A stretch of 64,000 bases of DNA, from positions 2,418,001-2,482,000 of the forward strand of contig NZ_AP024463.1 in assembly GCF_019973735.1 (NCBI RefSeq), in the 5' to 3' direction. Under the pieces are notes generated by a model. That model saw nothing but the letters and a program-made list of their open reading frames with translations. It ran no database searches and was not told the origin of the DNA. Below are positions 39,682-55,809 of the stretch, in pieces. This DNA is from Arachnia rubra. Lineage in GTDB: Bacteria > Actinomycetota > Actinomycetes > Propionibacteriales > Propionibacteriaceae. Both the position numbers and the translations under genes were made by a program. How positions within the stretch are numbered: the stretch's first letter is position 1; every line of letters starts with the position of its first letter.

Positions 39682-39979
39682 CCGGCACAGACGCACAATC
39701 TTCCAATCCCGAAGACCCCGTTTATGTCATGGGGTGGTAGCGGCATTTGGAGGAAAAGCGCACCTGAATCATGCGCCATGCGATCCGCAGCCAGCCTGAG
39801 CGTGGATGTGCCCCACTAGCCCAATCTCTCGTGGCGGGACTCTGGCCGTCGCCGCTATATCACGCGGCTAGAATGGGCCCGTCGAACGTGAACCAGCCCA
39901 CCGTCGTGCCCCTTCCAGACGGCCCGGTCGTGCAGCCGTCTTGGTCGGGGCCGGGTGGACGCAGTTGAGGAAGGGATCT

Positions 39980-42085
39980 ATGACGACCATCGCCGAGCCC
40001 GAAGTCAGCCCCATCCGCACCGATCCCTGGGAGGGTTTCGTTCCAGGGCCATGGCAGGAAGCCATTGACGTACGGGACTTCGTCCAGCGCAACTACACCC
40101 CCTACACCGGTGACGCCTCTTTCCTGGCAGGTCCCACCGCCAAGACGCTCCGGGTGTGGGACACCTTGGAGCAGGACTACCTGTCAGTGGAGCGTGCCCG
40201 CCGAGTCTATGACGTCGACACCGAGACGCCAGCGGACATCGACGCCTTCGCACCGGGCCACATCAGTGCCGACGACGATGTGATCGTCGGCTTGCAGACC
40301 GACACCCCACTGAAACGCGCGATGATGCCCAACGGCGGGTGGCGCATGGTGGAGACCGCCATCCGCGAGGCCGGCAAAGAGCCCAACCAGGACGTCAAGG
40401 ACATCTTCACGAAGTACCGCAAGACACACAACGAGGCAGTCTTCGACATCTACACCCCCCGGATCCGCGCCGCCCGCTCGTCGCACATCATCACGGGCCT
40501 GCCCGACGCCTACGGCCGTGGCCGCATCATCGGCGACTACCGGCGCGTGGCGCTGTATGGCGTGGACAAGCTGATCGAGTTCAAGCAGGCCGACAAGGCG
40601 GCCGTCGACTCAGCGCCCTTCTCGGAGCACTGGGCACGATTCCGCGAGGAGCATGCTGAGCAGATCAAGGCGCTGAAGAAACTCAAGGCGATGGCCGCCA
40701 GCTACGGCTTCGACATCTCCGGCCCAGCGCGCAACGCCAAGGAGGCCGTACAGTGGACGTATTTCGGCTACCTGGCCTCAGTGAAGTCGCAGGACGGCGC
40801 CGCGATGAGCATCGGACGGCTCTCCGCATTCTTCGACTGCTACTTCGAACGTGACTTCGCCGACGGCGTGCTCACCGAGGAGGACGCCCAGGAGATCATC
40901 GACGCCCTGGTCATCAAGCTGCGGATCGTGCGGTTCCTGCGCACCATCGAGTACGACCAGATCTTCTCCGGCGATCCGTACTGGGCCACCTGGTCTGACG
41001 CCGGCATCGGCGAGGACGGGCGTTCGCTGGTCACCAAGACCTCATTCCGCCTGCTGCAGACGCTGCGCAACCTGGGTCCTGCCCCCGAGCCGAACATCAC
41101 GATCTTCTGGGACCCGAAGCTGCCGGAGGGCTACAAGGAGTTCTGCGCGGCAATCTCCATCGAGACCTCGTCGGTGCAGTACGAGGCCGACGAGCAGATC
41201 CGCTCCCACTGGGGTGACGACGCGGCCATCGCCTGCTGCGTCTCCCCGATGCGGGTCGGCAAGCAGATGCAGTTCTTCGGTGCCCGCATGAACGCCGCCA
41301 AAACCCTGCTGTACGCCATCAACGGCGGCCGCGACGAGATGAGCGGCAAGCTCATCGTCCCCGACCACGAAGGGGTGGCCGGTGATGGCCCCCTCGACTT
41401 CGATGACGTGTGGATGCGATACGAGAAGATGCTCGACTGGGTGGCAGCCACCTACGTCGAGGCCCTTAACATCATCCACTACTGCCATGACCGCTATGCC
41501 TACGAGTCAATCGAGATGGCACTGCACGACTCCGACATCCTGCGCACCCTGGGCTGCGGCATCGCCGGATTGTCGATCGTGGCGGACTCGTTGTCGGCCA
41601 TCAAGTACGCCACGGTGACCCCTGTGCGTGATGAAACGGGGCTGGTCATCGACTACATCACCGAGGGCGACTTCCCCACCTACGGCAATGACGACGACCG
41701 GGCCGATGACATCGCCGCCGCCGTCGTGCACACGGTGATGAGCAAGATCAAGGAGATCCCGCTGTACCGGGATGCGATACCGACGCAGTCGGTGCTGACA
41801 ATCACCTCAAACGTGGTCTACGGCAAGGCGACGGGCTCGTTCCCCTCCGGCCACCAGGCGGGCACCCCCTTCGCGCCGGGCGCCAACCCCGAGAACGGCA
41901 TCGACAACCACGGCATGCTGGCCTCGATGCTGTCGGTGGGCAAGCTCGACTACGACGATGCCCTGGACGGCATCTCACTGACCAACACCATCACACCCTC
42001 CGCCCTTGGCCGCACCAAGGATGAGCAGGTAGACAACCTGGTAGGCATCCTCGACGCGGGTTTCGTGCCCGAGGGTTGCTGCTGA
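39980..42085 (+). CDS. pflB: pyruvate formate-lyase body without the glycyl-radical domain
   Basis: A 701-residue PflB that converts pyruvate and CoA to acetyl-CoA and formate in anaerobic metabolism. The catalytic cysteine pair is C419-C420 in AIACCVSPM. The E. coli enzyme has about 760 residues and ends with the glycyl-radical domain. Here the protein ends [16 protein letters not shown], exactly where that domain would begin, and the domain is encoded by the next gene. The chain is otherwise intact ([11 protein letters not shown] near the start, [23 protein letters not shown]). AAGGGAT precedes the ATG; a TAGAAT-like -10 lies at 39869. The unusual C-terminal CC pair may be structural. Confidence 0.93.
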
Positions 42086-42119
42086 ACCACCATCCCAGTC
42101 AGAAGGAAGCAGGAAAGAA

Positions 42120-42371
42120 ATGGCAGTCAAGACCTTTGACGAACGCGTGGCAGACATGAAGGCAGCCCGCGAGGCCCGCGGCGATGCCCCCGGGCTGTTC
42201 CACGCCAACATCAACGTGCTGAACCGTGAGACCCTTGAGGACGCCATGGAGAATCCGGAGAAGTACCCGAGCCTGACGGTGCGTGTCTCCGGCTATGCCG
42301 TGAACTTCGTGAAGCTCACCAAGGAGCAGCAGCGCGACGTCCTCTCCCGGACCTTCCACCAGGGTTCGTGA
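42120..42371 (+). CDS. grcA: separate glycyl-radical domain of pyruvate formate-lyase
   Basis: An 83-residue protein equivalent to the last 60 residues of PflB ([20 protein letters not shown], then [17 protein letters not shown]) preceded by a new 28-residue leader. Gly58 in RVSGYAVNF is the radical site made by the activase. It resembles YfiD/GrcA, the spare domain that repairs oxygen-cleaved PflB in E. coli, but here PflB has no such domain of its own, so this protein should be essential for activity. A good AGGAAG ribosome-binding site is present. Its stop overlaps the pflA start (GTGA). Confidence 0.92.
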
Positions 42372-43288
42372 CGACCTCACTCGATTCGGCGGCGGGGGTG
42401 CGTGTCGCTCCCGTCGCCGACGGTGTGTCCGGGGAGTTCCGCGTCGCCCCCGTCGACTTGGAGATGCCACGGCTGCGGCCCGGTGGCGCGGGCACCGCTG
42501 GCATCGATATCACTGACGACTTGGACCGTCACGAGCATCTCGAACTGGTGCGGGCCGGTGAACTGGCGTCGATGCACTCCTGGGAGCTGGTGACAGGCGT
42601 CGATGGGCCTGGCACCCGGATGACGGTGTTCCTCTCAGGTTGTCCGCTGCGCTGCCTGTACTGCCACAACCCGGACACGATGTTCGCCGCCAAGGGCCAG
42701 CCGGTGCGCCTCGGCGACCTGGTGGGACGCCTGAAACGGTATCGCTCGATCTTCCGCGCCACCAAGGGAGGGCTGACGGTCTCCGGGGGCGAACCGTTGA
42801 TGCAGCCCGCGTTCGTCAGGCGGCTGCTGGGCGAGGCGAAGCAGATGGGCATCCACACCGCCATCGACACCTCCGGTTTCCTGGGTGCGAACGCCTCCGA
42901 CGAGCTGCTCGACAACCTTGACTTGGTGCTCCTCGACATCAAGTCAGGCATCCCCGAGGTCTACCGGAAGACCACCGGCAGAGACCTGAAACCGACCATC
43001 GACTTCGCCCGGCGCCTGAGCGAGCGCGGCACTGAGGAGGCGTGGATCAGGTTCGTGCTGGTCCCGGGCCTCACCGACGCCGTCGAGAACGTGGAGGCCG
43101 TCGCCGACATCGTCGAGCAGATCCGCGTGGTGTCGCGGGTCGAGGTGCTGCCGTTCCACCAGATGGGGCGTGACAAATGGGCCACCATGGGCCTGCCCTA
43201 TAAACTCTCGGAGACCACGCCGCCATCGAAGGAGCTGACGGAACGGGTCCGCGAGCAGTTCCGCGCCCGAGGGCTGACCACCTACTGA
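42368..43288 (+). CDS. pflA: pyruvate formate-lyase activating enzyme
   Basis: A 306-residue radical-SAM enzyme that abstracts hydrogen from the glycine of the separate radical domain. The cluster cysteines are C92, C96 and C99 in [12 protein letters not shown], followed by the GGEPLMQP and DIKSG motifs of PFL activases. E. coli PflA has 246 residues; this one has about 65 extra residues at the N-terminus, which may recognise the detached domain (inference). It starts with GTG overlapping the previous stop by four bases. The C-terminus [18 protein letters not shown] is canonical. Confidence 0.92.
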
Positions 43289-43310
43289 GAAAAGTCTGCG
43301 AGGAGCCTTG

Positions 43311-43592
43311 ATGAATAACCCGGTGCATCCCGGAGAAGTCCTGCGGGAAGACGTCATCCGCGAACTGGGACTCAGCGTTGAAGAAGCCGCTTCGCGGCTG
43401 GGGGTATCTCGTGTGACGCTCAGCCGTGTGCTGCACGGCCATGCGGGTATCAGCTCCAATCTAGCCATCCGTTTGGAGGCGGCGGGTGCCGGTACCGCCC
43501 GTTCGTGGCTCGCCATGCAGATGGCCTACGACCTGGCCGCCGCACAGTCCACCGCCCCACCGGTGGTCCGCCGACTGGATGAGGTCGCCTGA
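43311..43592 (+). CDS. higA: HigA-family antitoxin, orphan
   Basis: A 93-residue XRE helix-turn-helix protein with the HigA/VapI hallmark NNPVHPGEVLREDVIRELGLS and VSRVTLSRVLHGHAGIS. It should bind DNA and neutralise a HigB mRNA-cleaving toxin, normally encoded just upstream, but only pflA is there. So it is an orphan or has another partner. It starts at ATG 43311 after AGGAG. It is 22 bases behind pflA, and cotranscription is possible. Confidence 0.85.
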   Translation: MNNPVHPGEVLREDVIRELGLSVEEAASRLGVSRVTLSRVLHGHAGISSNLAIRLEAAGAGTARSWLAMQMAYDLAAAQSTAPPVVRRLDEVA

Positions 43593-43623
43593 GAGGTCCT
43601 GTGGAAAGCCGGATGTATATCTC

Positions 43624-44091
43624 TCATAGCGGCACCGCCTCGGCCAGGGCCTGCGGCATGAGTTCTTCTGCGCGGGTGTCATCGACGATGTCTGCCCGGA
43701 ATCCGGTCAGGCGCTCGATCTCATCGGATAAGAGGGCGAGGGCTAGCAGGTCGGTGCCTGGTCCAGCGGTCACCATAAGGTCGATGTCGCTCCTGAAGTG
43801 ATCCTCGCCACGCGCCGCAGAGCCAAAAACCCTGAGCCGGCTAAATCCAAGGCGGGATGCCACGTCCCGGATTGATGACGCCTGCTCACTCAGCGGTACA
43901 GCGGGGCGGTAGTCCGCAGCCTGCAACACGCGCTCAAGCATGTCGCCGGAGACGCCGCGCGACCCGGTCTCCATCTGCGCCAGGCTCGCCTGCTGGATTC
44001 CGGCACGGCAAGCCAGCTCCTCCTGCGTGAGACCGGCGTCAGCGCGGGCGGATCGGATTAGCTGCGCCGCCCGGGAAGTATCAAACCTCAC
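43624..44091 (-). CDS. HTH-XRE and MNT-type nucleotidyltransferase fusion protein
   Basis: A 155-residue fusion. Residues 1-65 are an XRE helix-turn-helix (TQEELACRAGIQQASLAQMETGSRGVS). Residues 75-155 are a minimal nucleotidyltransferase with GS at 90-91 and the Asp pair D102/D104 in SDIDLMV, the pattern of the MntA half of HepT-MntA systems. MntA antitoxins can AMP-ylate HepT; here no HEPN toxin is next to it. The start is GTG 44091 preceded by TGAGGA with very short spacing. A palindrome just upstream suggests self-repression. It is convergent with higA. Confidence 0.78.
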   Translation of the reverse strand: MRFDTSRAAQLIRSARADAGLTQEELACRAGIQQASLAQMETGSRGVSGDMLERVLQAADYRPAVPLSEQASSIRDVASRLGFSRLRVFGSAARGEDHFRSDIDLMVTAGPGTDLLALALLSDEIERLTGFRADIVDDTRAEELMPQALAEAVPL

Positions 44092-44119: not shown

Positions 44120-44517
44120 CGCAGGCCCACCAGCCTGCTGCAACGTCATGGCTGCGGCCTGGCCGAGTACCACACACAAGCACCACACCTTGGGGCTGCG
44201 ACCTATGACAGAAACTGACACCGGACATCAAACACCACGACCGGACCCCAGATCACATCCCGCGTAAATCCAGCAGAGGACCCAGTGCCGCGTATCGTTC
44301 GCTGGTGTTCTCCGGCCCCGGATGCGGCGCCTCGCCTCGTTCACCTTACGGTACGACCCGGTAGTGTTTCACTCGGCTGTCTTGGCACAGCATCCGCCCG
44401 GAGCAGTCTCCCGCTGAACCTCCGATACACGACACTTGGCCAGGCAAGTCCCGGAAGCCGTTCCATACCCGAGGGCTGCCCACCTGGTGAGCAGACGGCC
44501 TGAATCTATTGCGGGGT

Positions 44518-44538
44518 TCTGTGATCACATGTTACGTT
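44518..44538 (+). promoter_or_regulatory. shared operator/promoter motif, copy 1
   Basis: Twenty-one bases beginning TCTGTGATCA and ending ATGTTACGTT, identical at 20 of 21 positions to 50642-50662. They include the 10-bp palindrome TGTGATCACA. In both places ACTCAAAGGAGAG follows 35-39 bases later. It probably binds the cluster's GntR regulator. Confidence 0.6.
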
Positions 44539-44591
44539 TGAAATCCCCGCAAGGCCGTATCTACGGCAAACGAACTCAAAGGAGAGCTGTG

Positions 44592-44699
44592 ATGTGCTGC
44601 GCCCAATTCCTCTCCCCGCCCAGCGCCAGCCACACGATTTATTCAGGCCACCAAGCCAGTTGCTGCCTGAGCCGAGGAGCGTCCCCGGCTCGGGCTTAA
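44592..44699 (+). CDS. putative 35-residue leader peptide
   Basis: A short frame directly behind the duplicated ribosome-binding cassette CAAAGGAGAG, with ATG five bases after it. The peptide has two Cys-Cys pairs (residues 2-3 and 24-25), is rich in Ser and Pro, and matches no family. Its 3' end overlaps a GC-rich hairpin. It could be a regulatory leader, for example for attenuation at cysteine codons, or a leftover 5' end of a deleted gene. Evidence for translation is only the strong ribosome-binding site. Confidence 0.35.
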   Translation: MCCAQFLSPPSASHTIYSGHQASCCLSRGASPARA

Positions 44700-44717
44700 G
44701 CTGCTGATCCGGCCCAG

Positions 44718-44764
44718 TTCCTGGCTTCAATGGTTTGTGAAACCGGCCGCAGAGACGCCAGGAA
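44718..44764 (+). promoter_or_regulatory. structured leader element
   Basis: TTCCTGGC pairs perfectly with GCCAGGAA (8 bp) and encloses a second perfect hairpin, GGTTT-GTG-AAACC. It sits between the leader peptide and the first shell gene. It may be an RNA switch or a processing site; no known class is recognised. Confidence 0.35.
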
Positions 44765-44928
44765 GCTCACCTCGCCGTCTGCCATGACGCCGCTCCGCTG
44801 ACGCGGCTGAAACCACGTCGTGACACCGGCCGATCCCCAGCAGAGTGCTGCCTGTGTCGCTGGCGACCCATAGAGACAATGGCAATAACCAAACCCTGAT
44901 ACATCACCCACACCAAGGAGTAACCAAG

Positions 44929-45216
44929 ATGTCAGATTCCAGCATGGCCGCGCTCGGCATGGTCGAGACCAAGGGCCTCATCGGATCCATCGAAGCCGCT
45001 GACGCGATGGTCAAAGCCGCCAATGTCAGGCTAATCGGCAAGGAACAGATCGGCGCCGGCTACGTCACCGTCATGGTGAGAGGCGACGTTGGCGCTGTGA
45101 AGGCCGCCACGGACGCGGGTGCGTCTGCCGCCGCCCGGGTCGGTGAGCTGGTTTCTGTGCACGTGATTCCCCGCCCGCACAGTGAGGTCGGACTGATCCT
45201 GCCCCACCACGACTGA
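44929..45216 (+). CDS. bacterial microcompartment hexameric shell protein
   Basis: A 95-residue single BMC-domain protein of the PduA/EutM type that forms the flat hexamers of microcompartment facets. Family features are [18 protein letters not shown] at the start, the pore-lining loop after [14 protein letters not shown], and the basic C-terminal turn [14 protein letters not shown] lies 9 bases before the ATG. It is the only hexamer gene in the window and the first conventional gene of the eut-like operon. Confidence 0.95.
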
Positions 45217-45245
45217 CGACGCCCAGGGCCAGAAGGAAGCCGACA

Positions 45246-45902
45246 ATGGACGTGTCCGGAATCCAGCTACGTGCGCTCTGCCACCTTGACCGGCTGCAGC
45301 CACAGTTCGCGGCTTTCGTCGGCGCGGTATCCGACGGCTCCCCGCCGGTAGAGGGGATGAGCGTCCTCTACATCGAGTTGTCGCCGAGCAATTGGGTATT
45401 TCCCGTCGTCGACCGGGTGCTGAAGTCGGTGGCAGTGGTGCCGGGCGCACAACAGGTTGAACGGCAGTATGGGATGTTCGAGGTGCACTCGGCCTCCCAG
45501 GCTGAGGTGCTGCGCGCCGCCGAGGTGGCGCTGGAGGCGATCGGCCTGCCGGAGACCGATCGGTATGCGCCGCGGGTGGTTTCCGAGCAGGTCATAACGA
45601 ACATTCACCCGAACCAGGCGCAGGTGCTGAATCGTTTCAACCGCGGCACGATGATTGAGGCTGGACAGACCATGCTGGTGCTTGAGGTGGAGCCCGCCGC
45701 GTACGTCTGCCTGGCCGCCAACGAGGCCGAGAAGGCAGCCCCCGTCTTCTTGAACCACCTGGAATCGGTGGGCATGTTCGGCCGGATGTGGTTGTCGGGA
45801 ACGGAAGCGGAAATCGCAGCCGCCCGCGAGGCTGCCCTGACCGCCCTGTCCTCCGTTGCAGGCCGGCCAGCTCAGGCCCTAGAAGGAAAGGAATATGGCT
45901 AG
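45246..45902 (+). CDS. tandem-BMC trimeric shell protein
   Basis: A 218-residue protein with two consecutive BMC domains (about 8-105 and 108-205), forming pseudohexameric trimers. It does not resemble EutL. The pattern IQLRALCHLDRLQPQFAAF, VERQYGMFEVH, RVVSEQVITNI, EVEPAAYVCLAANEAEKAA, MWLSGTEAE matches what I know of the BMC-T protein of Rhodococcus/Mycobacterium (RMM) microcompartments. Such trimers often carry a gated central pore. AAGGAA precedes the ATG. It follows the hexamer gene by 29 bases, so the two are cotranscribed. Confidence 0.88.
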   Translation: MDVSGIQLRALCHLDRLQPQFAAFVGAVSDGSPPVEGMSVLYIELSPSNWVFPVVDRVLKSVAVVPGAQQVERQYGMFEVHSASQAEVLRAAEVALEAIGLPETDRYAPRVVSEQVITNIHPNQAQVLNRFNRGTMIEAGQTMLVLEVEPAAYVCLAANEAEKAAPVFLNHLESVGMFGRMWLSGTEAEIAAAREAALTALSSVAGRPAQALEGKEYG

Positions 45903-46020
45903 TTGTCTCCCCTATCGCTTCAACCATCGGGATACGGTCATCCCCACGCACGTCATCATGGCATCGCGACCATCCCCACGCACGTCATCATGGCATCGCG
46001 ACGGGGCTGATCTGATATGA
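45895..46020 (+). CDS. possible small coupled reading frame before eutA
   Basis: A 41-codon frame whose ATG is preceded by an excellent AAGGAAAGGAAT site, overlapping the end of the BMC-T gene by 8 bases and the eutA start by ATGA. The peptide starts MASCLPYRFNHRDTV and matches no family. A perfect 32-bp tandem duplication lies inside it and shifts its own frame. It may be a decayed gene, such as a lost small shell gene, that now only couples translation into eutA. Confidence 0.35.
   Translation: MASCLPYRFNHRDTVIPTHVIMASRPSPRTSSWHRDGADLI
45939..46002 (+). repeat. perfect tandem duplication, 2 x 32 bp
   Basis: Bases 45939-45970 and 45971-46002 are identical, each beginning CATCCCCACG and ending GCATCGCGAC. 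The unit is not a multiple of three. It lies between the BMC-T gene and eutA. Confidence 0.92.
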
Positions 46021-47468
46021 GTGGCACTGACACGATATTGAGCGTCGGCATCGACGTCGGCACCTCAACCACTCAGCTGGTGTTCAGCCGCCTGACTGTC
46101 GAGAACATCGCAAACGTCTTCTCGATCCCCCGGATAACGATCGTCGACAAGCAGATCCTGCGCCGTAGCGATATCCACATCACCCCGCTGCTCGATCCGC
46201 GGACCATCGACACAGACGCACTGAGACGACTCGTCATCGATGAATATGCCAAGGCCGGTCTGGCTCCCGATGACATCGGCACCGGGGTCGCGATCATCAC
46301 CGGCGAGACGGCTCGCGCCGAGAACGCCGAGCAGGTGTTGGCTGCTCTCAGCACGCTTGCAGGGGATTTTGTGGTCTCGACTGCCGGCCCGCACCTGGAG
46401 TCAGTCCTCGCGGCCCGAGGAGCGGGGCTGGACACCTACTCGGAGCACACCAGCGCCATCGTCGCGAACCTGGACATCGGAGGGGGCACGACGAACATCG
46501 CGGCCTACCGCCAGGGACAGCTGCTGGGCACGAGCTGCATCGACATCGGCGGACGCCTGCTGCGGGTTACCGACGGACACATCACCTATATCTCGCACCA
46601 GCTTGCCCGGCTAGCCAGGCATCACGGGATCGCCGTGGCCGTCGGGGACCGGGCCGACATCACCCGGTTGCGCAGCCTCACCCAGGTCATGGCACGCCAG
46701 CTTGCCATGGCGATCGGCCTTATGGACCGCGATGAGATCCACGAGGTGCTGTACACCAACCAGGGGCGGCCGCTGTCGAAGGACCTGGTTCCGGGTGACA
46801 TCAGTTTCTCAGGCGGCATCGCCGACCTCATCAGCAGCACCGAGTCCAGCGATCCCTTCCGTTTCGGCGACATCGGGGTTCTGCTCGGCCAAGCTATAGC
46901 CGAGGATCCAGCTTTCAAACGTGTGACAAGGCATCAGGGGACCGAAACCATCGGGGCCACCGTCGTCGGGGCCGGAGTTCACACCACGGAGCTGTCCGGC
47001 TCCACAGTCGAGTTCTCGGTTTCCTCACTGCCGATCCGCAATGTGCCGATCATCACGGTCCCGGAAGAGGCGGAAAACGATCCAGAACGCCTACCCCAGG
47101 TGATCAAAGATCTGCTGCACGCCCTCAACCCGGACGACCCCACCCAGAGTGTCGCGATCTCCTTGCGTGGCCGGGGGCTGAATTCATTCGTGGCGGTGCA
47201 GGAACTGGCAGGCGCAATCATCAAAGGCGCCAGCGAGATTTTAGAAGGCCAGCATCCCCTGGTGGTGGTGCTCGAATCGGACCGCGCCAAAGTGCTCGGG
47301 CAGTCGCTGGCCGTACAGCGTGGTCGCAGGGAAGACGTCATCTGCATCGACTCGGTGCAGACCGGCGGCGGCGACTACATCGACATCGGCAAGCCTGTCG
47401 GGGCGGGGCGAGCTGTGCCGGTTGTCGTGAAAACCCTGGTCTTCAATGACCGACCCGAAGGAGAGTAA
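46017..47468 (+). CDS. eutA: ethanolamine ammonia-lyase reactivating factor
   Basis: A 483-residue actin-fold ATPase (E. coli EutA has 467) that removes damaged cobalamin from ethanolamine ammonia-lyase and lets fresh adenosylcobalamin enter. ATPase motifs are SVGIDVGTSTTQL near the N-terminus and ANLDIGGGTTNIAAY near 150. It overlaps eutB by one base (TAATG). Its presence implies that the lyase needs coenzyme B12. No eutT or B12 biosynthesis gene is in the window. Confidence 0.95.
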   Translation: MSGTDTILSVGIDVGTSTTQLVFSRLTVENIANVFSIPRITIVDKQILRRSDIHITPLLDPRTIDTDALRRLVIDEYAKAGLAPDDIGTGVAIITGETARAENAEQVLAALSTLAGDFVVSTAGPHLESVLAARGAGLDTYSEHTSAIVANLDIGGGTTNIAAYRQGQLLGTSCIDIGGRLLRVTDGHITYISHQLARLARHHGIAVAVGDRADITRLRSLTQVMARQLAMAIGLMDRDEIHEVLYTNQGRPLSKDLVPGDISFSGGIADLISSTESSDPFRFGDIGVLLGQAIAEDPAFKRVTRHQGTETIGATVVGAGVHTTELSGSTVEFSVSSLPIRNVPIITVPEEAENDPERLPQVIKDLLHALNPDDPTQSVAISLRGRGLNSFVAVQELAGAIIKGASEILEGQHPLVVVLESDRAKVLGQSLAVQRGRREDVICIDSVQTGGGDYIDIGKPVGAGRAVPVVVKTLVFNDRPEGE

Positions 47469-48832
47469 TGAAGCTAAGCACCACCCTCGACGGGGTAACT
47501 TACCGGTTCACCGGGATTCCGGATGTACTAGCCAAGGCAAACGAGCCCAAGGCAGCTGACAGGCTGCAGGGAATCGCGGCGCAGAGCGCAAGCGAACGTG
47601 TCGCGGCGAAAATAGTGTTGTCAGAACTCACCGTGGGAGACCTGACCGAGAATCCGGTCATCCCTTATGAGGAAGACGAGGTGACGCGCGTCAACTGGGA
47701 TGGGTTGAACCAGCCTGGTTATCAGTCGGTGAAGAATATGACCATCGGCGAATTACGCGAGTGGATTCTCGACCACAAGACCACTCCGGACGTGCTGAAA
47801 CGCTCAGCCCGCAACTTCACCGGTGAGGTGGCGGCCGCCGTCGCCAAGCTGATGACAGCTATGGATCTGGTGTATGGAGCCTCCCGCATCCACTACACGA
47901 CGCAGTGCAACACCGAGATTGGCCAGCCCGGCACCATCGCCTACCGGGCGCAGCCGAACTCCACCACCGACGACCCGGAAAGCATCATCGTGAGCCTGGC
48001 CGAAGGGCTCAGCTTCGGTTGCGGCGACGCTTGTTTCGGTATCAATCCCGTCAATGATGACCCGACCAACACCAAGCGCATAGCCGAGGCCGTCTGGGAG
48101 TTCAAGGAGCGCAACGAGGTCCCGACCCAGGTGGTTGTGCTGTCGCATATCACCACCCAGATGGAAGCGATCCGCCGCGGGGCTCCCCTGTCGATGATCT
48201 TCCAGTCGATCGCCGGCACCCAGGACACCAACGACGATTTCGGCGTGAACCGCGCCCTCATCGAGGAGGCCTACGAACTGGCCAAGCAGTATGGGCAGTG
48301 CCAGGGAGCGAACCTCCTGTACTTCGAGACCGGACAGGGCTCGGAGGTCTCGGTCGGCCGGGATCACGGCGCCGACGAGATGACGCTCGAGGCCCGCACC
48401 TACGGGTTCGGACGCTTCTTCCGTCCCTTCATGGTCAACAATGTGACCGGCTTCATCGGTCCCGAGACCATCTACGACGGCAAGGAGATGATCAGGGCGA
48501 ATCTTGAGGATCATTTCATGGGCAAGATGCTGGGTCTGCCCATGGGCATGGCCCCGTGCTGGACCAACCACACCTCCATCACGATGGATGATCAGCAGCA
48601 GGCCACCATGCTGCTGGCGATGGCAGGTTCCACCTATTACATCGGGGTTCCCTGCGCCGACGACGTGATGCTCGCCTACCAGGACACGAGCTACCACGAC
48701 AACGCGGCGCTTCGCGAACTGCTCGGCAGGACCGCAGCTCCGGAGTTCCATCGCTGGATGGTCTCTCGCGGCCTCTGCGATGAGAGTGGCGTGCTGACCG
48801 AACGGGCCGGCGACGGCTCCATGTTCCTATGA
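47468..48832 (+). CDS. eutB: ethanolamine ammonia-lyase large subunit
   Basis: A 454-residue catalytic subunit, almost the length of E. coli EutB (453), in the adenosylcobalamin-dependent lyase that makes acetaldehyde and ammonia from ethanolamine. Conserved stretches are visible: LTENPVIPYEEDEVTR-like region (about 60-75), GLSFGCGDACFGINPVND, LLYFETGQGSEVS and GLPMGMAPCWTNHTSI. The gene is complete. GAAGGAGAG precedes the ATG. The catalytic glutamate in ETGQGSE is retained. Confidence 0.96.
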   Translation: MKLSTTLDGVTYRFTGIPDVLAKANEPKAADRLQGIAAQSASERVAAKIVLSELTVGDLTENPVIPYEEDEVTRVNWDGLNQPGYQSVKNMTIGELREWILDHKTTPDVLKRSARNFTGEVAAAVAKLMTAMDLVYGASRIHYTTQCNTEIGQPGTIAYRAQPNSTTDDPESIIVSLAEGLSFGCGDACFGINPVNDDPTNTKRIAEAVWEFKERNEVPTQVVVLSHITTQMEAIRRGAPLSMIFQSIAGTQDTNDDFGVNRALIEEAYELAKQYGQCQGANLLYFETGQGSEVSVGRDHGADEMTLEARTYGFGRFFRPFMVNNVTGFIGPETIYDGKEMIRANLEDHFMGKMLGLPMGMAPCWTNHTSITMDDQQQATMLLAMAGSTYYIGVPCADDVMLAYQDTSYHDNAALRELLGRTAAPEFHRWMVSRGLCDESGVLTERAGDGSMFL

Positions 48833-48849
48833 GTTGAGTGAGGATAACC

Positions 48850-49752
48850 ATGAGCATTGAGCAGAGCCAGCAGTTTGAAGAGATCGTGCGCCGGGTGATC
48901 GCAGAACTCGGTGTGCGCCCTGCGTCCGATGCGCCTCAGCAGGCCGCCACACCAGAGCCACGCCGAGGGCAGCAGGAACAGGAAGCGGAGGCGGAGATCC
49001 CGGATATCCGGGCCGTCGACTACCGGCAGGTCTACCGGGTACCGGATCCGGCGAATCCAGACGAGTTCGCGCGGCTGAAGGCCCGCACCTGGGCCAGGCT
49101 TGGCCAGGGCCGGACCGGACCGCGATACACCACGGCAGCGCAACTGCGTTTCTGGGCGGATCAGGCCGCAGCCATGGATGCGGTGTTCACGGATGTGGCG
49201 TCCGACTGGCTGGAGCACGCCGGGTTGTTCACAGTGCAGACCAAGTGCAGGTCAAAGGACGAGTACCTGACCAACCCGGAGCTTGGCGCCCAGTTTGACG
49301 ACGCCGTCATAGCCGAGATCAAGCAGCGTTGCCAGTCCAAGCCTGAGGTGCAGGTCTTCGTGGCCGATGGTCTTTCATCGACCTCGGTGGAGGCCAACGT
49401 CGCGGAGTTGTTGCCGGCGCTGGACCAGGGCCTGAAGCTGCACGGCCTGACGATGGGAACCCCATTCTTCGTGAAATACGGCCGGGTGCGTTCCATGGAA
49501 CCGATCTCCGAGGCACTCGGCGCAACTGTCACCTGCGTGCTGCTCGGGGAACGTCCGGGACTGGCCAGTGCGGAGTCGCTGTCGGCCTACCTGGCCTACC
49601 AGGCAAAGGTGGGGATGTCGGAGGCGGAGCGGACCTGTGTCTCCAACATCCACAGCTCCGGTTCGAATCCAATCGAGGCTGGCGCCCACCTAGCAGATCT
49701 GATTGCTGCGATGATCAAGCAGAAGACCTCGGGAATCCATCTAGAGCTATGA
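48850..49752 (+). CDS. eutC: ethanolamine ammonia-lyase small subunit
   Basis: A 300-residue cobalamin-binding subunit. The N-terminal 22 residues (SQQFEEIVRRVIAELGV) form an amphipathic helix like the EutC encapsulation peptide that targets the lyase into the shell. A variable Gln/Glu-rich linker (30-55) follows, then the B12-binding domain from about 60 with VADGLSSTSVEANVAELLPAL and NIHSSGSNPIEAGAHLADL. The ATG at 48850 follows GAGGATAA. Ends just before the GntR regulator gene. Confidence 0.94.
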   Translation: MSIEQSQQFEEIVRRVIAELGVRPASDAPQQAATPEPRRGQQEQEAEAEIPDIRAVDYRQVYRVPDPANPDEFARLKARTWARLGQGRTGPRYTTAAQLRFWADQAAAMDAVFTDVASDWLEHAGLFTVQTKCRSKDEYLTNPELGAQFDDAVIAEIKQRCQSKPEVQVFVADGLSSTSVEANVAELLPALDQGLKLHGLTMGTPFFVKYGRVRSMEPISEALGATVTCVLLGERPGLASAESLSAYLAYQAKVGMSEAERTCVSNIHSSGSNPIEAGAHLADLIAAMIKQKTSGIHLEL

Positions 49753-49841
49753 CCGGGGAAGGGCGACGCCCCCAGGCAGAGCATGTGCGGTACGACATGT
49801 CAAGACCTCTGGTTCGTCAAAGAGTGGCTGTCTGCAATAAA

Positions 49842-50531
49842 ATGCCCCCCGTGGCATTGATGAAGCTGGAACCTGCCCAGCGTGTTGGAGACCAGGCGTT
49901 CGATGCCATTCACGATGCGATCATGACTGGCGAGTATCGAGCGGGGCAACGGCTCCAGATCCGCCAGCTCGCTGAGAAGCTGGGCACCAGCGTCATGCCG
50001 GTGCGGGAGGCAATCAAGCGGCTGGAGGAGCTCAGCCTCGTGGAGACCTTCCCACACCGCAGCGCCGTCGTGAAACGTTTCACCCGGGACGAGCTCCTCC
50101 AGCTGTATGCGGTCCGCCGCATCCTGGAGGTTGAGGCGACACGGCTGGGGGCACCCGCTGTGCCCACCAAGGACATCCAGGCGCTCCGCAAGCTTCATAG
50201 CCGCCTGGCCTCAGCCTTGGCCCGGGGGAATGCCATCGAGTATCTGGAGTTCGACGAGAAACTGCTCGCCAGCGTGTATCTCTGCTCCGGCAACACGGTG
50301 CTGCTGGATACGATCCGCAGGCTGTGGCAGCGGTGCCGTTCGTACAAGATCGTGGGTGTCAGGCGGCAGATCGAATCCGGCCAGACCGACATCCTGTTGT
50401 CTTACCAAGAAGAGCTGATCAACGCTGTCGCCGCTGGCGACGTGGACCGGGCGGAACAGATAACGGCGGATTCCCTGGACGCCGCCACTGAGCGGATCCG
50501 GGCCGCCCTGCCAGATGAGGGAGCCGATTAG
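49842..50531 (+). CDS. GntR-family (FCD) transcriptional regulator
   Basis: A 229-residue regulator: GntR winged helix (residues 15-80, with LQIRQLAEKLGTSVMPVREAIKRLEEL) and a C-terminal FCD ligand domain (about 90-220) that usually binds small carboxylates or metal. It is not EutR (AraC) or EutVW (ANTAR), which control other eut loci. The start is uncertain (49842 or 49860), with no clear ribosome-binding site. It lies between the eut genes and a divergently repeated promoter motif, the natural candidate for its operator. Confidence 0.88.
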   Translation: MPPVALMKLEPAQRVGDQAFDAIHDAIMTGEYRAGQRLQIRQLAEKLGTSVMPVREAIKRLEELSLVETFPHRSAVVKRFTRDELLQLYAVRRILEVEATRLGAPAVPTKDIQALRKLHSRLASALARGNAIEYLEFDEKLLASVYLCSGNTVLLDTIRRLWQRCRSYKIVGVRRQIESGQTDILLSYQEELINAVAAGDVDRAEQITADSLDAATERIRAALPDEGAD

Positions 50532-50562
50532 GCCGGCTGAAGGATCCAAGAAGATCATCAGG

Positions 50563-50606
50563 AGCTGACCGCTCGCGCAGCCAATTGCACGAGCGGTCAG
50601 CTTTTT
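50563..50606 (+). terminator. rho-independent terminator after the GntR gene
   Basis: A perfect 13-bp inverted repeat AGCTGACCGCTCG with a 14-base loop, followed by TTTTATT. It separates the eut operon from the second module. Confidence 0.9.
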
Positions 50607-50635
50607 ATTCACCTCTTAGTTTTTATTCACCCCTT
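50602..50635 (+). repeat. imperfect 16-base direct repeat
   Basis: TTTTTATTCACCTCTT is repeated at 50620 as TTTTTATTCACCCCTT, with an 18-base period, between the terminator and the shared promoter motif. Confidence 0.8.
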
Positions 50636-50641
50636 GCGTGA

Positions 50642-50662
50642 TCTGTGATCAAATGTTACGTT
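50642..50662 (+). promoter_or_regulatory. shared operator/promoter motif, copy 2
   Basis: The near-identical counterpart of 44518-44538 (20 of 21 bases). It lies 58 bases before the GTG of the flavin oxidoreductase gene, with the same ACTCAAAGGAGAG ribosome-binding cassette at 50702-50714. Confidence 0.6.
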
Positions 50663-50720
50663 GTCAGAAATCACGATGCTTGGCCTGGATTGGTCGTTCG
50701 TACTCAAAGGAGAGACGTCA

Positions 50721-52088
50721 GTGAAGGATGTAATCGTTGTCGGAGCTGGCCTTGCCGGATTGTCTGCTGCCTGGCGGATGCGCCACTGGGACACACTGGT
50801 TCTGGAAGCCGACTCCCGCGTGGGTGGCCGGATACGCTCCGAGCGGCGTGGTCAGTACTGGCTGAACTGGGGAGGGCACGTGTTCGCAGGCCCGGGCAGT
50901 TCAACGGACTCGCTGCTGAACGAGGTCGGGGTCTTAGCCGTCGCGGTGCCGGGTTCCCTTCAAGGCCTTCAGATGAATGGGAAGTTCATCCGGAAGGGGC
51001 ACATCGCCACCTATCCGTTCCGCATCCCGATGTCGTTCAAGGCCCGGCTTGCCACCCTGCTCACCGGCATCAAGGTAGTCAGCGGCGTGGCCCGCTACAC
51101 CGCCGTCGTGCGGCAGCGCCCTGGGGAGTCCGGTCCGATGCGGCAGCAGCGAGTTTACGATTTCGACAACGAGCGTTCGTTCCTCGACTTCATCAAGGAC
51201 CAGCCCGAGGATGCCGCAGCCCTGTTCAAGACGACGGTGACACGTTCCGCCGGGGATATGGACCAGATCTCGGCCGGGTCGGGCATCGGGTATTTCAGTT
51301 TGGTGCTCGGTATCGGACAGGGCCTGAACCGGGCCATCGTGGGCGGCCCGTCGACCCTCACCGAGTCCGTCGCGGTGGCTCTCGGGGACACCGTCCAGCT
51401 CGGCGCCAGGGTTCACGAGGTGGTTCACCGGAAGAACTCAGTGCTCGTGCGCTACGAGCAGGACGGCCAGGACCACGAGGCCGAGGCCCGGGCAGTCATC
51501 CTGGCGACAACCGCCGATGTCTCACACCAGATCGCCGTTGATCTCCCGTATGACCTGAACGAGGCCCTGGGCAAGGTCCAGTACGGGCCCCACGTGAGCA
51601 CAGCCTTCCTCACCAACGAGACAACCCGTCAGCGCTGGGACGACGTCTACGCGATCGCGGCTCCGAAGCGGTCGTTCGCCATCTGCCTGAACCATGCAAG
51701 CGTGATCCGCAGCCAGGAGAAGGAACGCCAGCCAGGCGGCTCCATCATGTGCTTCTCCCCCGCCAGCCTTGGACGGGCTCTCTTCGACAAGAGCAACGAG
51801 GAGGTCATCGCGACACATCTGGCGGATCTTGAGGAAGTCCTGCGGCCAGGTTTCTCCGACATGGTTGTGGAGGCCCGGGCCGAGCGCTGAAAGTCCGCCT
51901 CGCCGTACTGCTTCCCAGGCCGCTCCAAGCTCCAGCCCACGCTGATGCGGGGCGCCAGCCGCGTCCTACTGGCCGGTGACTTCCTGGGCACCCTCTACAC
52001 CGAAAGCGCCATCACTTCGGGGTTCGCGGCGGCAACGAATGCCGCCAGCATCCTCGCCACCGAGCGCCAGACCCACCACAACGCCTGA
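50721..52088 (+). pseudogene. flavin amine-oxidase-like gene with an internal TGA
   Basis: FAD-dependent oxidoreductase of the amine oxidase/protoporphyrinogen-oxidase-like superfamily. The dinucleotide-binding motif VIVVGAGLAGLSAAW opens the protein, with EADSRVGGRIRS next. Translation stops at TGA 51888-51890, codon 390, but the same frame continues for 65 codons with the expected C-terminus (PYCFPGRSKLQPTLMRGASRVLLAGD and GFAAATNAASILA). Relatives usually have Trp at the stop position, so TGG to TGA is the likely change. The start is GTG after AAAGGAGAG. Possible outcomes are a dead gene, readthrough or recent loss. The substrate, perhaps an amine, is unknown. Confidence 0.85.
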
Positions 52089-52160
52089 CGCAGGGCGTCT
52101 CACCCAATCCCCTCTGCCCCAAATCCTTTCTGCGCACCGCTGTTTCACTTTTCTAGGAGA

Positions 52161-53050
52161 ATGATGTCCAAGCACTTGTCCGGCGTCCTCACCGCCCTGG
52201 CCACCCCCTTCGACTCCAGTGAGAGCATCGACGCCGACCTCCTCAGAGCAGTCGTCGAACGCTCCGTCTCAGCCGGGGTCGGCGGCGTCGTGGCCTGCGG
52301 TTCGACTGGAGAGGTCGGCACCATGTCCTCCGATGAGCGGCGCAGGGTCGTCGACATCGTCGTGGAGCAGACCGCGGGCCGGGTGCCGGTCATCGCCCAG
52401 ACGGGCGCCACCTCGACTGCCGAGGCCATCCGGCTGTCGCAGGCGGCGCAGTCCTCGGGGGCCGATGTGCTGATGCTGGTCACGCCTTTCTATGAGGCAG
52501 TCACCGTCGAGGAGACGGTCGCGTATCTGAAGGATGTCGCGGCATCGGTCGATCTGCCGGTGATGCTCTACAACATCCCGTCGGCCACCGGGGTGAATCT
52601 GGATCCCGCGCTGGTGCGGCGGCTCGCCACCGAGATCGACAACGTCAAGTACATCAAGGATTCCAGCGCGAACTTCGAGCAGGCACTTGAGCTGATCCAT
52701 TACCACAGCGACGTCATCGGCACATTCATCGGCTGGGACGTCTACCTGTACAGCGCCCTGGTCGAGGGGCGGCCGGCATCATGGCCGGCGCTGCGAACGT
52801 CGTCCCGGAGGAGCTGGTCGAGGTCGCTGCCCTGATCAAGGAGAACAAGCTCGATGAGGCCCTGGCGAAGTGGAAGCGGGTCTATCCCGTCATCGATCTC
52901 CTGATCACGACGGCCTTCATCCCCGGCGTGAAAGCCGGGCTGGAGTTACAGGGTCAGCCGGCCGGGACGCCACGCCGACCACTGGCGCCCTACCCGGCCG
53001 ATGATGTCGCCCGTCTGCGCGATGCCCTGGCACGCCTCAAACAGGGTTAG
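52161..53050 (+). pseudogene. DapA-family aldolase, frameshifted
   Basis: A dihydrodipicolinate synthase/N-acetylneuraminate lyase superfamily protein of about 296 residues if restored. Motifs are GSTGEVGTMSSDERRRVV, the catalytic Tyr in VMLYNIPSATG and the Schiff-base Lys in KYIKDSSAN. Near 52766-52770 the frame shifts: VEG runs into a wrong frame, while the expected AAGIMAGAANVVPEELVEV continues in another frame to 53050. One missing G in GGGG explains it. It is not likely to be the lysine-pathway dapA; it may act on a catabolic keto acid in the module. GGAGA precedes the ATG. Confidence 0.85.
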
Positions 53051-53058
53051 GCACATCA

Positions 53059-54582
53059 ATGATCCCTCTGGACATCACCTCAGACACTCAGGCGATAGCG
53101 GACTTCATCTGGAATCCGATGGCGTATGTGGTTCTCGGCCTGGGACTGGCCTACACGATCGGCACCAAGGCTGTGCAGTTCCGGCGGGTCCCGGACATGG
53201 TCCGCCAGCTGCGTGACTCGACTGGCGGCGACGGCGGCATGTCGTCATTCCAGGCCCTGGCCATGGCCCTCGCGAGCCGCGTCGGTGTGGGTTCCATCGC
53301 GGGTGTTGCCACCGCGATCGGCGGTGGCGGCCCGGGCGCCTTGCTGTGGATGGCTGTCACCGGCCTGCTGGGCTGCACCGTCGGCTACGCAGAGGCCTGC
53401 CTGTCCCAGACGTTCAAACGCCAGGTCGAGGACGAAGATCTGAAACGGGCCAAGGAGGATATCGGCGGTATGCCGTATTACATCCGGTACGGCCTGAACT
53501 GGCCCAAGGTGGGAGCGCTCATCGCGGTCCTGGGTGTCGTCGGCTATGGCCTGGTGTTCCCCGGCCTCCAGGTCAGTACCATCGCCAGCAGCTGGAGTCG
53601 GGCTTTTGGGTTGCCGTCCTGGGGGCCTGCGGTCGTCGTGACCGGCCTGGTCGCGATGGTGATCTTCGGTGGCACCGTCCGGCTGGTCAAGGTGACCCAG
53701 GTGCTGGTGCCGCTGCTGGCCTTCGGCTATCTGGGCCTGGCGCTGGCGGTCATCGGCATCAACTATGCCCAGATTCCCAGCGCCATCAGTCTGATAGTCC
53801 GCTCGGCCTTCGGCATGGAGCCGCTGCTGGCGGGCATCGCGGGGGCTGCTGTCGCCTGGGGCGTCCGGCGTGCGGTGTTCGCCTCGTCGAACGGACTGGG
53901 TGAGGCCACCTTCTCCGCGGCTGGCGCGCGCACGTCGCATCCGGGCAAGCAGGGCCTGGTGCAGACCTTCAGCGTCTACATCGACATCCTGCTGATCTGC
54001 ATGGCCAGTGGGCTCATGATGGTGGTCTCGGGCAAATTCAACGTGACCAACCCCGACGGTGGTTTCTTCATCGAGAACCTGCCGGGTGTGGCCGTCGGGC
54101 CGAACTGGGTGCAGGAGTCCATCAACACCTTGGCTCCCGGCTGGGGTCCGGCCTTCGTGGCAGTGGCGGTGCTGATGTTCGGTTTCGCCTGCCTGCTGGC
54201 CTATTTCTACGTCGCCAACACCAACCTGTTGTACCTGCTGGATGGGCGCAAGGGCAAAGGCCTGAAACTCGGTCTGAAGCTCGGCACCATGGCGATCGTC
54301 TTCACCGGCTCGATCATCAGCGCCGATTTCGTGTGGGCTGTCGGCGATATCGGGCTCGGCCTGATCGCCTGGGTCAACCTGTTCTGCCTGGTGTTCCTGT
54401 TCAAGATCGTCCGCACGGTCTGGAAGGATTACGAGGAGCAGGCCAGGGCAGGGCTGGATCCGCACTTCGACCCGGTCAAGCTCGGGATCAAGAATGCCGA
54501 CTTCTGGCTGGTCAAACACGACTGGGGTTCCCGTCAGGAAAGTGAAAGCAACGAGAACCAGCCAAAGCCCACAACAAACTAA
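53059..54582 (+). CDS. AGCS-family sodium:amino acid symporter
   Basis: A 507-residue membrane transporter with 10-11 helices, of the alanine/glycine:cation symporter family. Family motifs: GGDGGMSSFQALAMALASRVGVGSIAGVATAI, GGPGALLWMAVTGLLGC, RRAVFASSNGLGEATFSAAGA and DFVWAVGDIGLGLIAWVNL. It imports amino acids with sodium; here it may carry the substrate of the module, since no EutH permease is present. A long charged C-terminal tail ends ENQPKPTTN. It begins 8 bases after the DapA-like stop, so the genes are cotranscribed. Confidence 0.92.
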   Translation: MIPLDITSDTQAIADFIWNPMAYVVLGLGLAYTIGTKAVQFRRVPDMVRQLRDSTGGDGGMSSFQALAMALASRVGVGSIAGVATAIGGGGPGALLWMAVTGLLGCTVGYAEACLSQTFKRQVEDEDLKRAKEDIGGMPYYIRYGLNWPKVGALIAVLGVVGYGLVFPGLQVSTIASSWSRAFGLPSWGPAVVVTGLVAMVIFGGTVRLVKVTQVLVPLLAFGYLGLALAVIGINYAQIPSAISLIVRSAFGMEPLLAGIAGAAVAWGVRRAVFASSNGLGEATFSAAGARTSHPGKQGLVQTFSVYIDILLICMASGLMMVVSGKFNVTNPDGGFFIENLPGVAVGPNWVQESINTLAPGWGPAFVAVAVLMFGFACLLAYFYVANTNLLYLLDGRKGKGLKLGLKLGTMAIVFTGSIISADFVWAVGDIGLGLIAWVNLFCLVFLFKIVRTVWKDYEEQARAGLDPHFDPVKLGIKNADFWLVKHDWGSRQESESNENQPKPTTN

Positions 54583-54606
54583 CCCTCACGTCAGAAAGAG
54601 ATTCCG

Positions 54607-55776
54607 ATGTTCACCGTAGACACCTACACCCCGACTCGCGTCATCTTCGGTGCCGGGCGGCTCGAGGAACTCGCCTCAGTGGAGCTACCGGGGACCAAAG
54701 CCCTGATCTGCGTCACAGCCGATGGCCTGATGGAGAAAATCGGCGTTCAGCAGCGGGTCCTCGATCTGCTGGCCAAGAACAACGTCGAGGCCGCGATCTT
54801 CAGCGACATCACACCCAACCCGAACCGGGAGACCGTGATGGCAGCGGCAGCTCTTGCCGAACGAGAGGGCTGTGACTTCTTCATCGGGCTGGGTGGCGGC
54901 TCCAGCATCGACGTGGCGAAGGCGACTGCGATCATCGCCAAGAATGGCGGTGACCTGTGGGATTACGCCGAGGTCGGCAGCGGCGGGCGCAAACCCGTCC
55001 AGGTCGCAGCACCCATCATCACCATCGCCACCACCTGCGGCACCGGCACCGAGACAGACCAGTACTGCGTCATCACCAAGGAGGAGACCGCCGAGAAGAT
55101 CGATTTCACCATGGACGCGTTATTCCCGACGCTGTCTATCATCGATCCCGAATTAATGGTTTCACTGCCCAAGAACCAGACGATGTTCCAGGGCTTCGAC
55201 GCTTTCTTCCACAACGCGGAATGCTATATCACCAACAACAACCAGAACCGCCTGCTGGACCTGTTCACCATTGATGGTTTCACCACTGTCTACCAGTGGC
55301 TGCCCAAAGCGCTGGAGAATGGCTCCAACCTGGAGGCGCGCACGAATATGGCCTATGGCGCAAACATTCTGGGTGGATATGCGATGGCGCACTGCTTCGT
55401 CACGACCCATCACATCATCGGCCAGGCCATGGGTGGGGTATTCCCCAAGGTTCCGCACGGCGCCACCTTGATCCTGATCGCGAAAGAGTTCTACCGGCTC
55501 TGGGCACCCAAGTTCCCCGAATTCTTCGACGCGATGGGCAAGCTGCTCGGGGTGGAACCCGACCCAGCGCAGCCCGGAACCGGTTTCTCCCGGGCCGTCG
55601 AACAGCTGATGGAGGTCACGGGAGCCAGCGACCTGAAGATGTCGGACTTCGGCATCGACCCGGCGGAGTTCCAGAGGATCGCCGACAACACAGTCGACGT
55701 CATCGGGATCGACTGGGATCGCTATGTGATGTCCAAGGAGGAGATCGTGCAGCTGCTGGAGAAATCCTACCGCTAA
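54607..55776 (+). CDS. iron-dependent alcohol dehydrogenase
   Basis: A 389-residue group III alcohol dehydrogenase that reduces aldehydes to alcohols with NAD(P)H. It has the GLGGGSSIDVAKA cofactor loop and iron ligands D198, H202, H269 and H284 (HIIGQAMGG and VPHG segments). Eut loci carry such an enzyme, EutG, to reduce acetaldehyde; this one lies in the second module and may serve the same role. A strong terminator follows. No N-terminal encapsulation helix is obvious. Confidence 0.92.
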   Translation: MFTVDTYTPTRVIFGAGRLEELASVELPGTKALICVTADGLMEKIGVQQRVLDLLAKNNVEAAIFSDITPNPNRETVMAAAALAEREGCDFFIGLGGGSSIDVAKATAIIAKNGGDLWDYAEVGSGGRKPVQVAAPIITIATTCGTGTETDQYCVITKEETAEKIDFTMDALFPTLSIIDPELMVSLPKNQTMFQGFDAFFHNAECYITNNNQNRLLDLFTIDGFTTVYQWLPKALENGSNLEARTNMAYGANILGGYAMAHCFVTTHHIIGQAMGGVFPKVPHGATLILIAKEFYRLWAPKFPEFFDAMGKLLGVEPDPAQPGTGFSRAVEQLMEVTGASDLKMSDFGIDPAEFQRIADNTVDVIGIDWDRYVMSKEEIVQLLEKSYR

Positions 55777-55809
55777 GCCGTCGAAGAAATGTAAGTCGTC
55801 AAAGCAATG

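Follow-up and report, generated by a model that had tools for sequence, protein, structure and literature searches.

A vertex-less eut-type locus of Arachnia rubra is probably a satellite module left by reduction of a fuller microcompartment locus

What is a bacterial microcompartment (BMC) locus that encodes shell hexamers (BMC-H), shell trimers (BMC-T) and a lyase, and no vertex protein (BMC-P)? The question is raised by an ethanolamine utilization (eut) type locus in a 64,000-nucleotide stretch of the Arachnia rubra chromosome, called here the window (positions 2,418,001–2,482,000 of a 3,316,972-base single-contig genome). Comparison of sequences, from which all the evidence below is drawn, led us to consider it, with some reservation, probably a vertex-less satellite eut module left by reduction of a fuller eut-type microcompartment locus. 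It would likely serve as a supplementary lyase that is inducible, acts on an amino alcohol and draws on parts of the main eut locus. Two observations carry this reading: the only gene of the vertex family PF03319 in the genome lies at 690.7 kb, inside the main eut operon, and the corresponding block of the nearest relative, the congener G039, has EutN-EutL-EutE-BMC-H-EutT in front. The elements of the locus are as follows (window coordinates).

44510–44534, forward strand: operator-like site, core TGTGATCACA at 44520, in the promoter region of the BMC-H/BMC-T/eutABC/gntR operon
44929–45216, forward strand: BMC-H shell hexamer of the PduA/EutM type (PF00936, 99 bits)
45246–45902, forward strand: tandem BMC-T, CcmP-like (BMC-Tdp type; NCBIfam CcmP model, E 8.8e-68, under the model's cut-off)
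46017–47468, forward strand: EutA, lyase reactivating factor (PF06277, 552 bits)
47468–48832, forward strand: EutB, lyase large subunit, type B, with Ala where E. coli has Asp362 (PF06751, 597 bits)
48850–49752, forward strand: EutC, lyase small subunit (PF05985, 264 bits; alternative GTG start possible at 48838)
49749–50531, forward strand: GntR/FCD regulator (PF00392, PF07729)
50634–50658, forward strand: second copy of the operator-like site, 5' of the second operon (exact pattern match)
50661–51890, forward strand: flavin amine oxidoreductase family protein (PF01593, 91 bits)
52161–53050, forward strand: DapA-like gene (DHDPS family), split over two frames (pieces 52161–52835 and 52781–53050)
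53059–54582, forward strand: AgcS sodium:amino acid symporter (TIGR00835, 355 bits, above cut-off)
54607–55776, forward strand: iron-containing alcohol dehydrogenase, Fe-ADH (PF00465, PF25137; under the cut-off of every NCBIfam model matched)

The genes of the first operon (BMC-H, tandem BMC-T, eutABC and the GntR/FCD regulator) matched family models far above chance, and the tandem BMC-T drew no score from Pfam's BMC model. For BMC-H, a start at the ATG at 44929 is more likely than at the GTG at 44845. An initial annotation of this stretch had described one PduA/EutM-like shell protein and eutABC with a GntR/FCD regulator, in agreement with the family scores listed above; its gene list was right, but its left edge at 44518 cuts through the palindromic operator-like site. 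The second operon (amine oxidoreductase, split DapA-like gene, AgcS and Fe-ADH), preceded by an exact copy of the operator-like site, is likewise part of the locus. Its two DapA-like pieces cover profile positions 2–198 and 206–286, whereas the G039 counterpart is one open frame, and the split is either real decay or a sequencing error. When EutN, EutL, EutE, EutT, EutQ, EutD and EutH queries from three loci were compared with 40–63 kb of the window by lenient tblastn, only chance-level matches were obtained (best E 0.045), the sole real match of the same search being BMC-H (E 6e-36). Relict copies of these genes were accordingly rejected for that interval, and the earlier statement that no BMC-P, EutE, EutD or EutH lies beside the genes is upheld, for the window only. 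No known RNA family reached its gathering score in window positions 38–62 kb or in the loci L010, L012, L139 and L148.

The missing parts were found on the same chromosome, as the initial annotation had supposed they might be. The single EutN gene belongs to a main eut operon at 681–692 kb (L010) with the order EutH-EutN-EutA-EutB-EutC-EutL-EutE-EutM-EutQ-EutT-EutD, and the genome encodes a full EutE, outside the window. Neither BMC-P nor EutE lies immediately outside the window, a placement named beforehand as one that would speak against an unusual locus, yet both are on this chromosome. The EutB of the main operon is 50% identical to the window EutB, and the window BMC-H is 87% identical to the main EutM and 88% to the type-B BMC-H of G039. 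By the definitions given in the cited passages of Axen 2014 (PMC4207490) and Sutter 2021 (PMC8217296), this is a satellite or satellite-like locus: BMC-H and BMC-T are adjacent (PF00936 only) with no PF03319 in the window, and a main eut operon elsewhere has BMC-P, BMC-H and BMC-T, with the only BMC-P at 690.7 kb.

A third shell locus of the genome, besides the main eut operon and the window locus, is a pdu locus at about 3117–3129 kb, with shell genes, a diol dehydratase large subunit and a PduP-like aldehyde dehydrogenase. It is collinear with that of genome G033 (large dehydratase subunit 96% identical), which has two PF03319 genes where this genome has one. For the pduN and pduL of G033 no counterpart was detected in the pdu locus of this genome (L012, L013), PduL having been sought in L010–L013 and the window; at the expected place of pduN, some 20 bases separate the genes on either side. 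With a pdu locus lacking pduN and a single PF03319 gene in the genome, the three shell loci have one vertex gene among them. In Klebsiella, shell hexamers of different BMC types are reported to be cross-compatible (PMC12058022), which makes sharing plausible and says nothing on vertices.

The comparison with relatives points to reduction. A search with EutB in 198 genomes of the family gave a match in 54, ten of them (including the window's own genome) at 80% identity or more. G039, the nearest, has the order EutN-EutL-EutE-BMC-H-EutT-EutA-EutB-EutC-GntR-AmOx-DapA-AgcS-FeADH (AmOx standing for the amine oxidoreductase; AgcS split over two frames), followed by an EutH-family gene. The DNA of both is 75–77% identical over window positions 46,024–50,512 and 50,634–55,779 and 80% over BMC-H, and window positions 44,506–44,586 align with the promoter and ribosome-binding site (RBS) 5' of the G039 eutN, the similarity ending after that. 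Behind this conserved promoter, EutN-EutL-EutE are lacking in the window. Genome G055 has the order EutN-EutL-EutE-BMC-H-EutQ-EutT-BMC-Tdp-EutD-EutA-EutB-EutC, and since it too has EutN-EutL-EutE, the plain reading of these orders is that these genes and EutT were lost in the window lineage, a gain in the G039 lineage being less likely. G039 has no BMC-Tdp, which in G055 sits between EutT and EutD, and it is from such a slot that the window trimer would come. In G055, the intact type-B locus is additionally accompanied by a broken, partial duplicate of itself (L147, 7486–14401). Dating the reduction with the BMC-H and BMC-T trees was abandoned, as few inner branches were well supported (2 of 30 and 5 of 20, respectively) and no firm single partner of the window trimer emerged.

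The ten genomes were sorted by the position of the vertex gene relative to the type-B lyase. In G039 and G055 the vertex gene is part of the type-B locus and a type-A lyase is absent, and in G051 type B stands just downstream of a type-A locus with a vertex. Five genomes have type B away from any vertex gene: G000 (with BMC-H and BMC-Tdp), G041 (with BMC-H), and G013, G159 and G160, where no adjacent shell gene was detected; each of the five encodes, elsewhere in the genome, a type-A lyase accompanied by EutN and EutE. The contig of G154 was too short to class. Both lyase types occur in one microcompartment locus in L162, L163, L151/L152, L153 and L190. These data bear on whether the two shell proteins of the window could form a self-sufficient minimal shell with no corners. 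Some BMC shells assemble without pentamers, and here both shell genes share one operon with the lyase. We nevertheless regard such a shell as very improbable, as the congener G039 has the vertex and EutE in the same block, the window locus has no aldehyde dehydrogenase, and each of the five vertex-less type-B loci has a vertex gene elsewhere in its genome. From the earlier suggestion of an incomplete or minimal-form shell, what survives is a reduced form of an eut-type locus, of which G039 retains vertex and EutE, and not a self-standing minimal shell.

Expression of the locus was approached through the operator-like sites. Because the pattern TTGCGNNNNNTGTGATCANANNTTA was derived from sites already seen, its counts at these sites are not independent evidence. 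With up to 2 mismatches allowed, it matched the window once, exactly and 5' of the second operon, while none of 100 window shuffles matched. Genome-wide, at up to 3 mismatches, it was found at three places (the exact site of the second operon, the BMC-H site with 3 mismatches and one unrelated place with 3 mismatches), and a backwards control pattern at two. Because the control also reaches the 3-mismatch level, the BMC-H site (44510–44534) must rest on its alignment with the exact site 5' of eutN in G039, with which it has the RBS in common, and not on the pattern alone. In G039, exact sites stand 5' of both EutN and AmOx (two matches at up to 3 mismatches, a number reached by 1 of 200 shuffles), and G055 has one exact site and one with 3 mismatches. 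Judging from these sites, the window locus is probably a regulon of its own.

Several observations weigh against the satellite reading. The operator pattern is absent from the main eut operon (L010), which is adjoined by a divergent MocR-like gene (GntR and aminotransferase domains), and the two loci may therefore not be co-expressed. A separate regulon agrees with a different inducer and is, in part, an argument against a simple shared shell. The tally of genomes that supports dependence is small and comes partly from drafts; absences in the several draft relatives are weaker than in the single contig studied here, and contamination is 6% in G051 and 9% in G154. The window BMC-T sits on a long branch (0.43, the median being 0.13), possibly a sign of relaxed constraint. 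Genome G052 (L144, a single contig), with no PF00936 or PF03319 gene, retains type-B eutABC and the EutC N-terminal stretch, and also encodes EutD and an alcohol dehydrogenase of the zinc type. This stretch, which in the window EutC is amphipathic and resembles an encapsulation peptide when N-termini are compared, was dropped as proof of encapsulation, since a shell-less genome has both it and type-B EutABC.

The same observations lend something to the idea that the window lyase is cytosolic and mainly frees ammonia, the two shell genes being leftovers. The shell-less G052, the type-B genes of G013, G159 and G160, the long BMC-T branch and the separate operator can all be read in this way, and Acinetobacter baumannii is reported to use the lyase without a metabolosome (PMC9426561). 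Against it, both shell genes are intact open frames, the EutC N-terminal stretch is retained, and the ratio of non-synonymous to synonymous substitution rates (dN/dS) of BMC-H against G039 is 0.09, within a range of 0.04–0.28 for eight genes. The range for the eight genes counts for the satellite reading, but the ratios mostly reflect the time before the loss, because dS is near saturation (1.0–1.5). On balance, a cytosolic lyase with relict shell genes appears unlikely, and a satellite module remains the preferred explanation.

The type of shell was examined through the trimer, which the initial annotation had assigned to the Rhodococcus/Mycobacterium (RMM) type, proposing a hybrid of an RMM-type shell and a B12-dependent lyase. 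This proposal did not hold. Against nine solved relatives, the window BMC-T scored highest with CcmP (188 bits), and the RMM proteins MSM0271 (136.5 bits) and MSM0275 (124.8 bits) ranked last. The ER pair of CcmP, which we presume to have a role in the pore, is conserved in the alignment. Relatives of this trimer occur in eut loci: among the 79 loci examined, EutB, EutE and BMC-Tdp are found together in 13, whose EutE proteins are 49–73% identical to that of this genome. The RMM hybrid was rejected on the ranking. Likenesses to RMM loci, as described in passages of Axen 2014 (PMC4207490), are the GntR regulator, an amino-acid-type permease and an amino alcohol as likely substrate; the window locus departs from them in having a B12 lyase where they have an aminotransferase and a short-chain dehydrogenase, two enzymes absent from the genes identified in 44.9–55.8 kb, and their trimers are the weakest of the nine relatives in what is a score ranking and not a tree.

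Other known systems also resemble the window locus, as far as the cited passages of Sutter 2021 (PMC8217296) describe them. Satellites with eutABC are reported there, among them the satellite EUT modules of HO, SPU3 and SPU6 loci, proposed to add the lyase to another shell. The window locus resembles these in having eutABC and a shell trimer away from a main locus; it differs in that its trimer is CcmP-like and not an EutL-type BMC-Tsp, its main locus is itself eut, its lyase belongs to the Ala362 clade, and it has a regulator and a second operon of its own. With EUT3 it has in common a lyase and, by sequence, a BMC-Tdp, whereas EUT3 has its own aldehyde dehydrogenase and the window locus has neither that nor BMC-P. 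Compared with EUT2-type loci (as given in passages of Axen 2014 and Sutter 2021) and the main eut operon of this genome, eutABC and an EutM-like hexamer are alike, and EutN, EutL, EutE, EutT, EutQ, EutD and EutH are lacking. The long and short eut loci of Klebsiella pneumoniae, in the portion of PMC11101070 considered here, likewise amount to two lyase loci per genome with different regulators, but the second one there serves transport and metabolism only, whereas the window locus retains shell genes. According to the cited passages of a human-gut survey (PMC6620236), its Actinobacteria lacked Eut microcompartments, whereas the present genome has one.

The lyase itself is altered at its pocket. 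Asp362 of the E. coli ethanolamine ammonia-lyase (EAL) is a residue that, from structural work, we take to bind the substrate amine. In 170 aligned EutB rows (the window EutB being included twice, as WIN and L093, and database rows possibly repeating loci), R160, Q162, N193, E287 and F329 (E. coli numbering) were unchanged throughout, while position 362 was Ala in 135 and Asp in 35. The Ala362 rows had N325 in 135 of 135 and T334 in 134, and the Asp362 rows T325/Y334 in 32 of 35 and N325/T334 in the other three; at 80% identity, the two sets reduce to 26 and 15. Nine of 452 positions, including 325, 334 and 362, differ between the sets at over 90% fixation on both sides. The window protein agrees with EAL in its EutB/EutC family match and its core R160, Q162, N193 and E287, and departs from it in having Ala for Asp362. 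Term look-up in the open literature, including the available text of two EAL papers (PMC10440813, PMC12670283), returned no text on the role of Asp362, and the consulted portions of the literature on second eutB copies, Tessaracoccus with eut and 1-amino-2-propanol lyases held nothing recognised as the Ala362 clade.

Thirteen EutBs were read in loci of Bacillota-type relatives, of which 11, one each in 11 loci, had Ala362/N325/T334, one was of type A with Asp362 and one had Gly362. The latter, the second EutB of L184, combines Gly362 with T325 and V334, a further variety of the pocket. Fifteen of 20 further EutBs of the family were readable (13 at 41–46% identity to the window EutB and two of type A), all with T325, Y334 and D362. 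In a tree of 35 rows, a branch with 100/100 support gathers all 19 Ala362 rows, three Asp362 rows with N325/T334 and the Gly362 row, which fits a single origin of Ala362 with later changes. The clade spans Actinomycetota and Bacillota. Besides this genome, 3 of 396 sampled genomes of the phylum matched EutB at E 1e-150; in the phylum of G593, 10 of 398 did so at 1e-170, and in its class none of 97 at the stricter 1e-175. Matches in 149 plasmid records were all below 60% identity to the window EutB.

Whether the substrate is ethanolamine or a related amino alcohol had been left as a choice by the initial annotation. The altered pocket makes the related amino alcohol plausible. Plain ethanolamine, with neutral or affinity-tuning pocket changes, would fit the satellite reading as well and is a real if rather doubtful possibility: the five invariant residues named above are unchanged in 170 of 170 EutBs, Asp362 has been regained in 3 of the 119 database matches of the clade compared (from 120 listed among 7860 passing the limit), and EutH-like permeases stand beside several type-B lyases (EutH-family genes adjoin them in L139, L146, L149, L151 and others). 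It is harder to reconcile with the near fixation of Ala362/Asn325/Thr334 over two phyla, when 13 of 13 more distant EutBs read have Asp362/Thr325/Tyr334, with the retention of both lyase types in genomes that have both, sometimes in one locus, or with a window locus that has an AgcS-type importer and no EutH. We tentatively propose, at somewhat below even probability, that the Ala362 EutB clade, annotated as ethanolamine ammonia-lyase in those records that carry a name, would be a B12 ammonia-lyase in its own right, acting on a different amino alcohol and often run alongside a true EAL, whether in the same microcompartment or in a shared one, and that one vertex protein would serve the eut, eut-B and pdu shells here. 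As a guess, a propionic-acid bacterium would be well served by substrates that give propionaldehyde, 1-amino-2-propanol and 2-amino-1-propanol being examples.

Under the satellite reading, the substrate, either ethanolamine or, with greater likelihood, a closely related amino alcohol, would enter the cell, AgcS being the candidate importer, and induce the locus through the GntR/FCD regulator at the two predicted operators. EutA would keep the B12 lyase EutBC active, and this lyase would cleave the substrate to an aldehyde and ammonia inside a shell to which the EutC N-terminal stretch may target the enzyme. Hexamers and trimers of that shell would come partly from the window locus, and EutN, EutE and EutD from the main eut operon; the main-locus EutE would oxidise the aldehyde, of which the local Fe-ADH may reduce a part.

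Around these genes, some further features were observed. A 32-base unit is present in two head-to-tail copies at 45939–46002, between the BMC-T gene and eutA. To the left of the locus, 39941–43288 encodes a glycyl radical enzyme resembling pyruvate formate-lyase, along with a radical SAM protein that probably activates it, and between the gene of this probable activase and the operator (43308–44091) there are a small helix-turn-helix gene on the forward strand and a helix-turn-helix plus nucleotidyltransferase gene on the reverse strand, possibly of antitoxin type.

In conclusion, a shell that appeared cornerless becomes a possible case of organelle sharing, the single contig of this genome having three shell loci and a single BMC-P gene; if this is true, shells of different pathways would share corners in this organism. 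As for the lyase, the replacement of the pocket aspartate, in the role that we take it to have, in a widespread clade implies that the annotation as ethanolamine ammonia-lyase may be wrong for many genomes.

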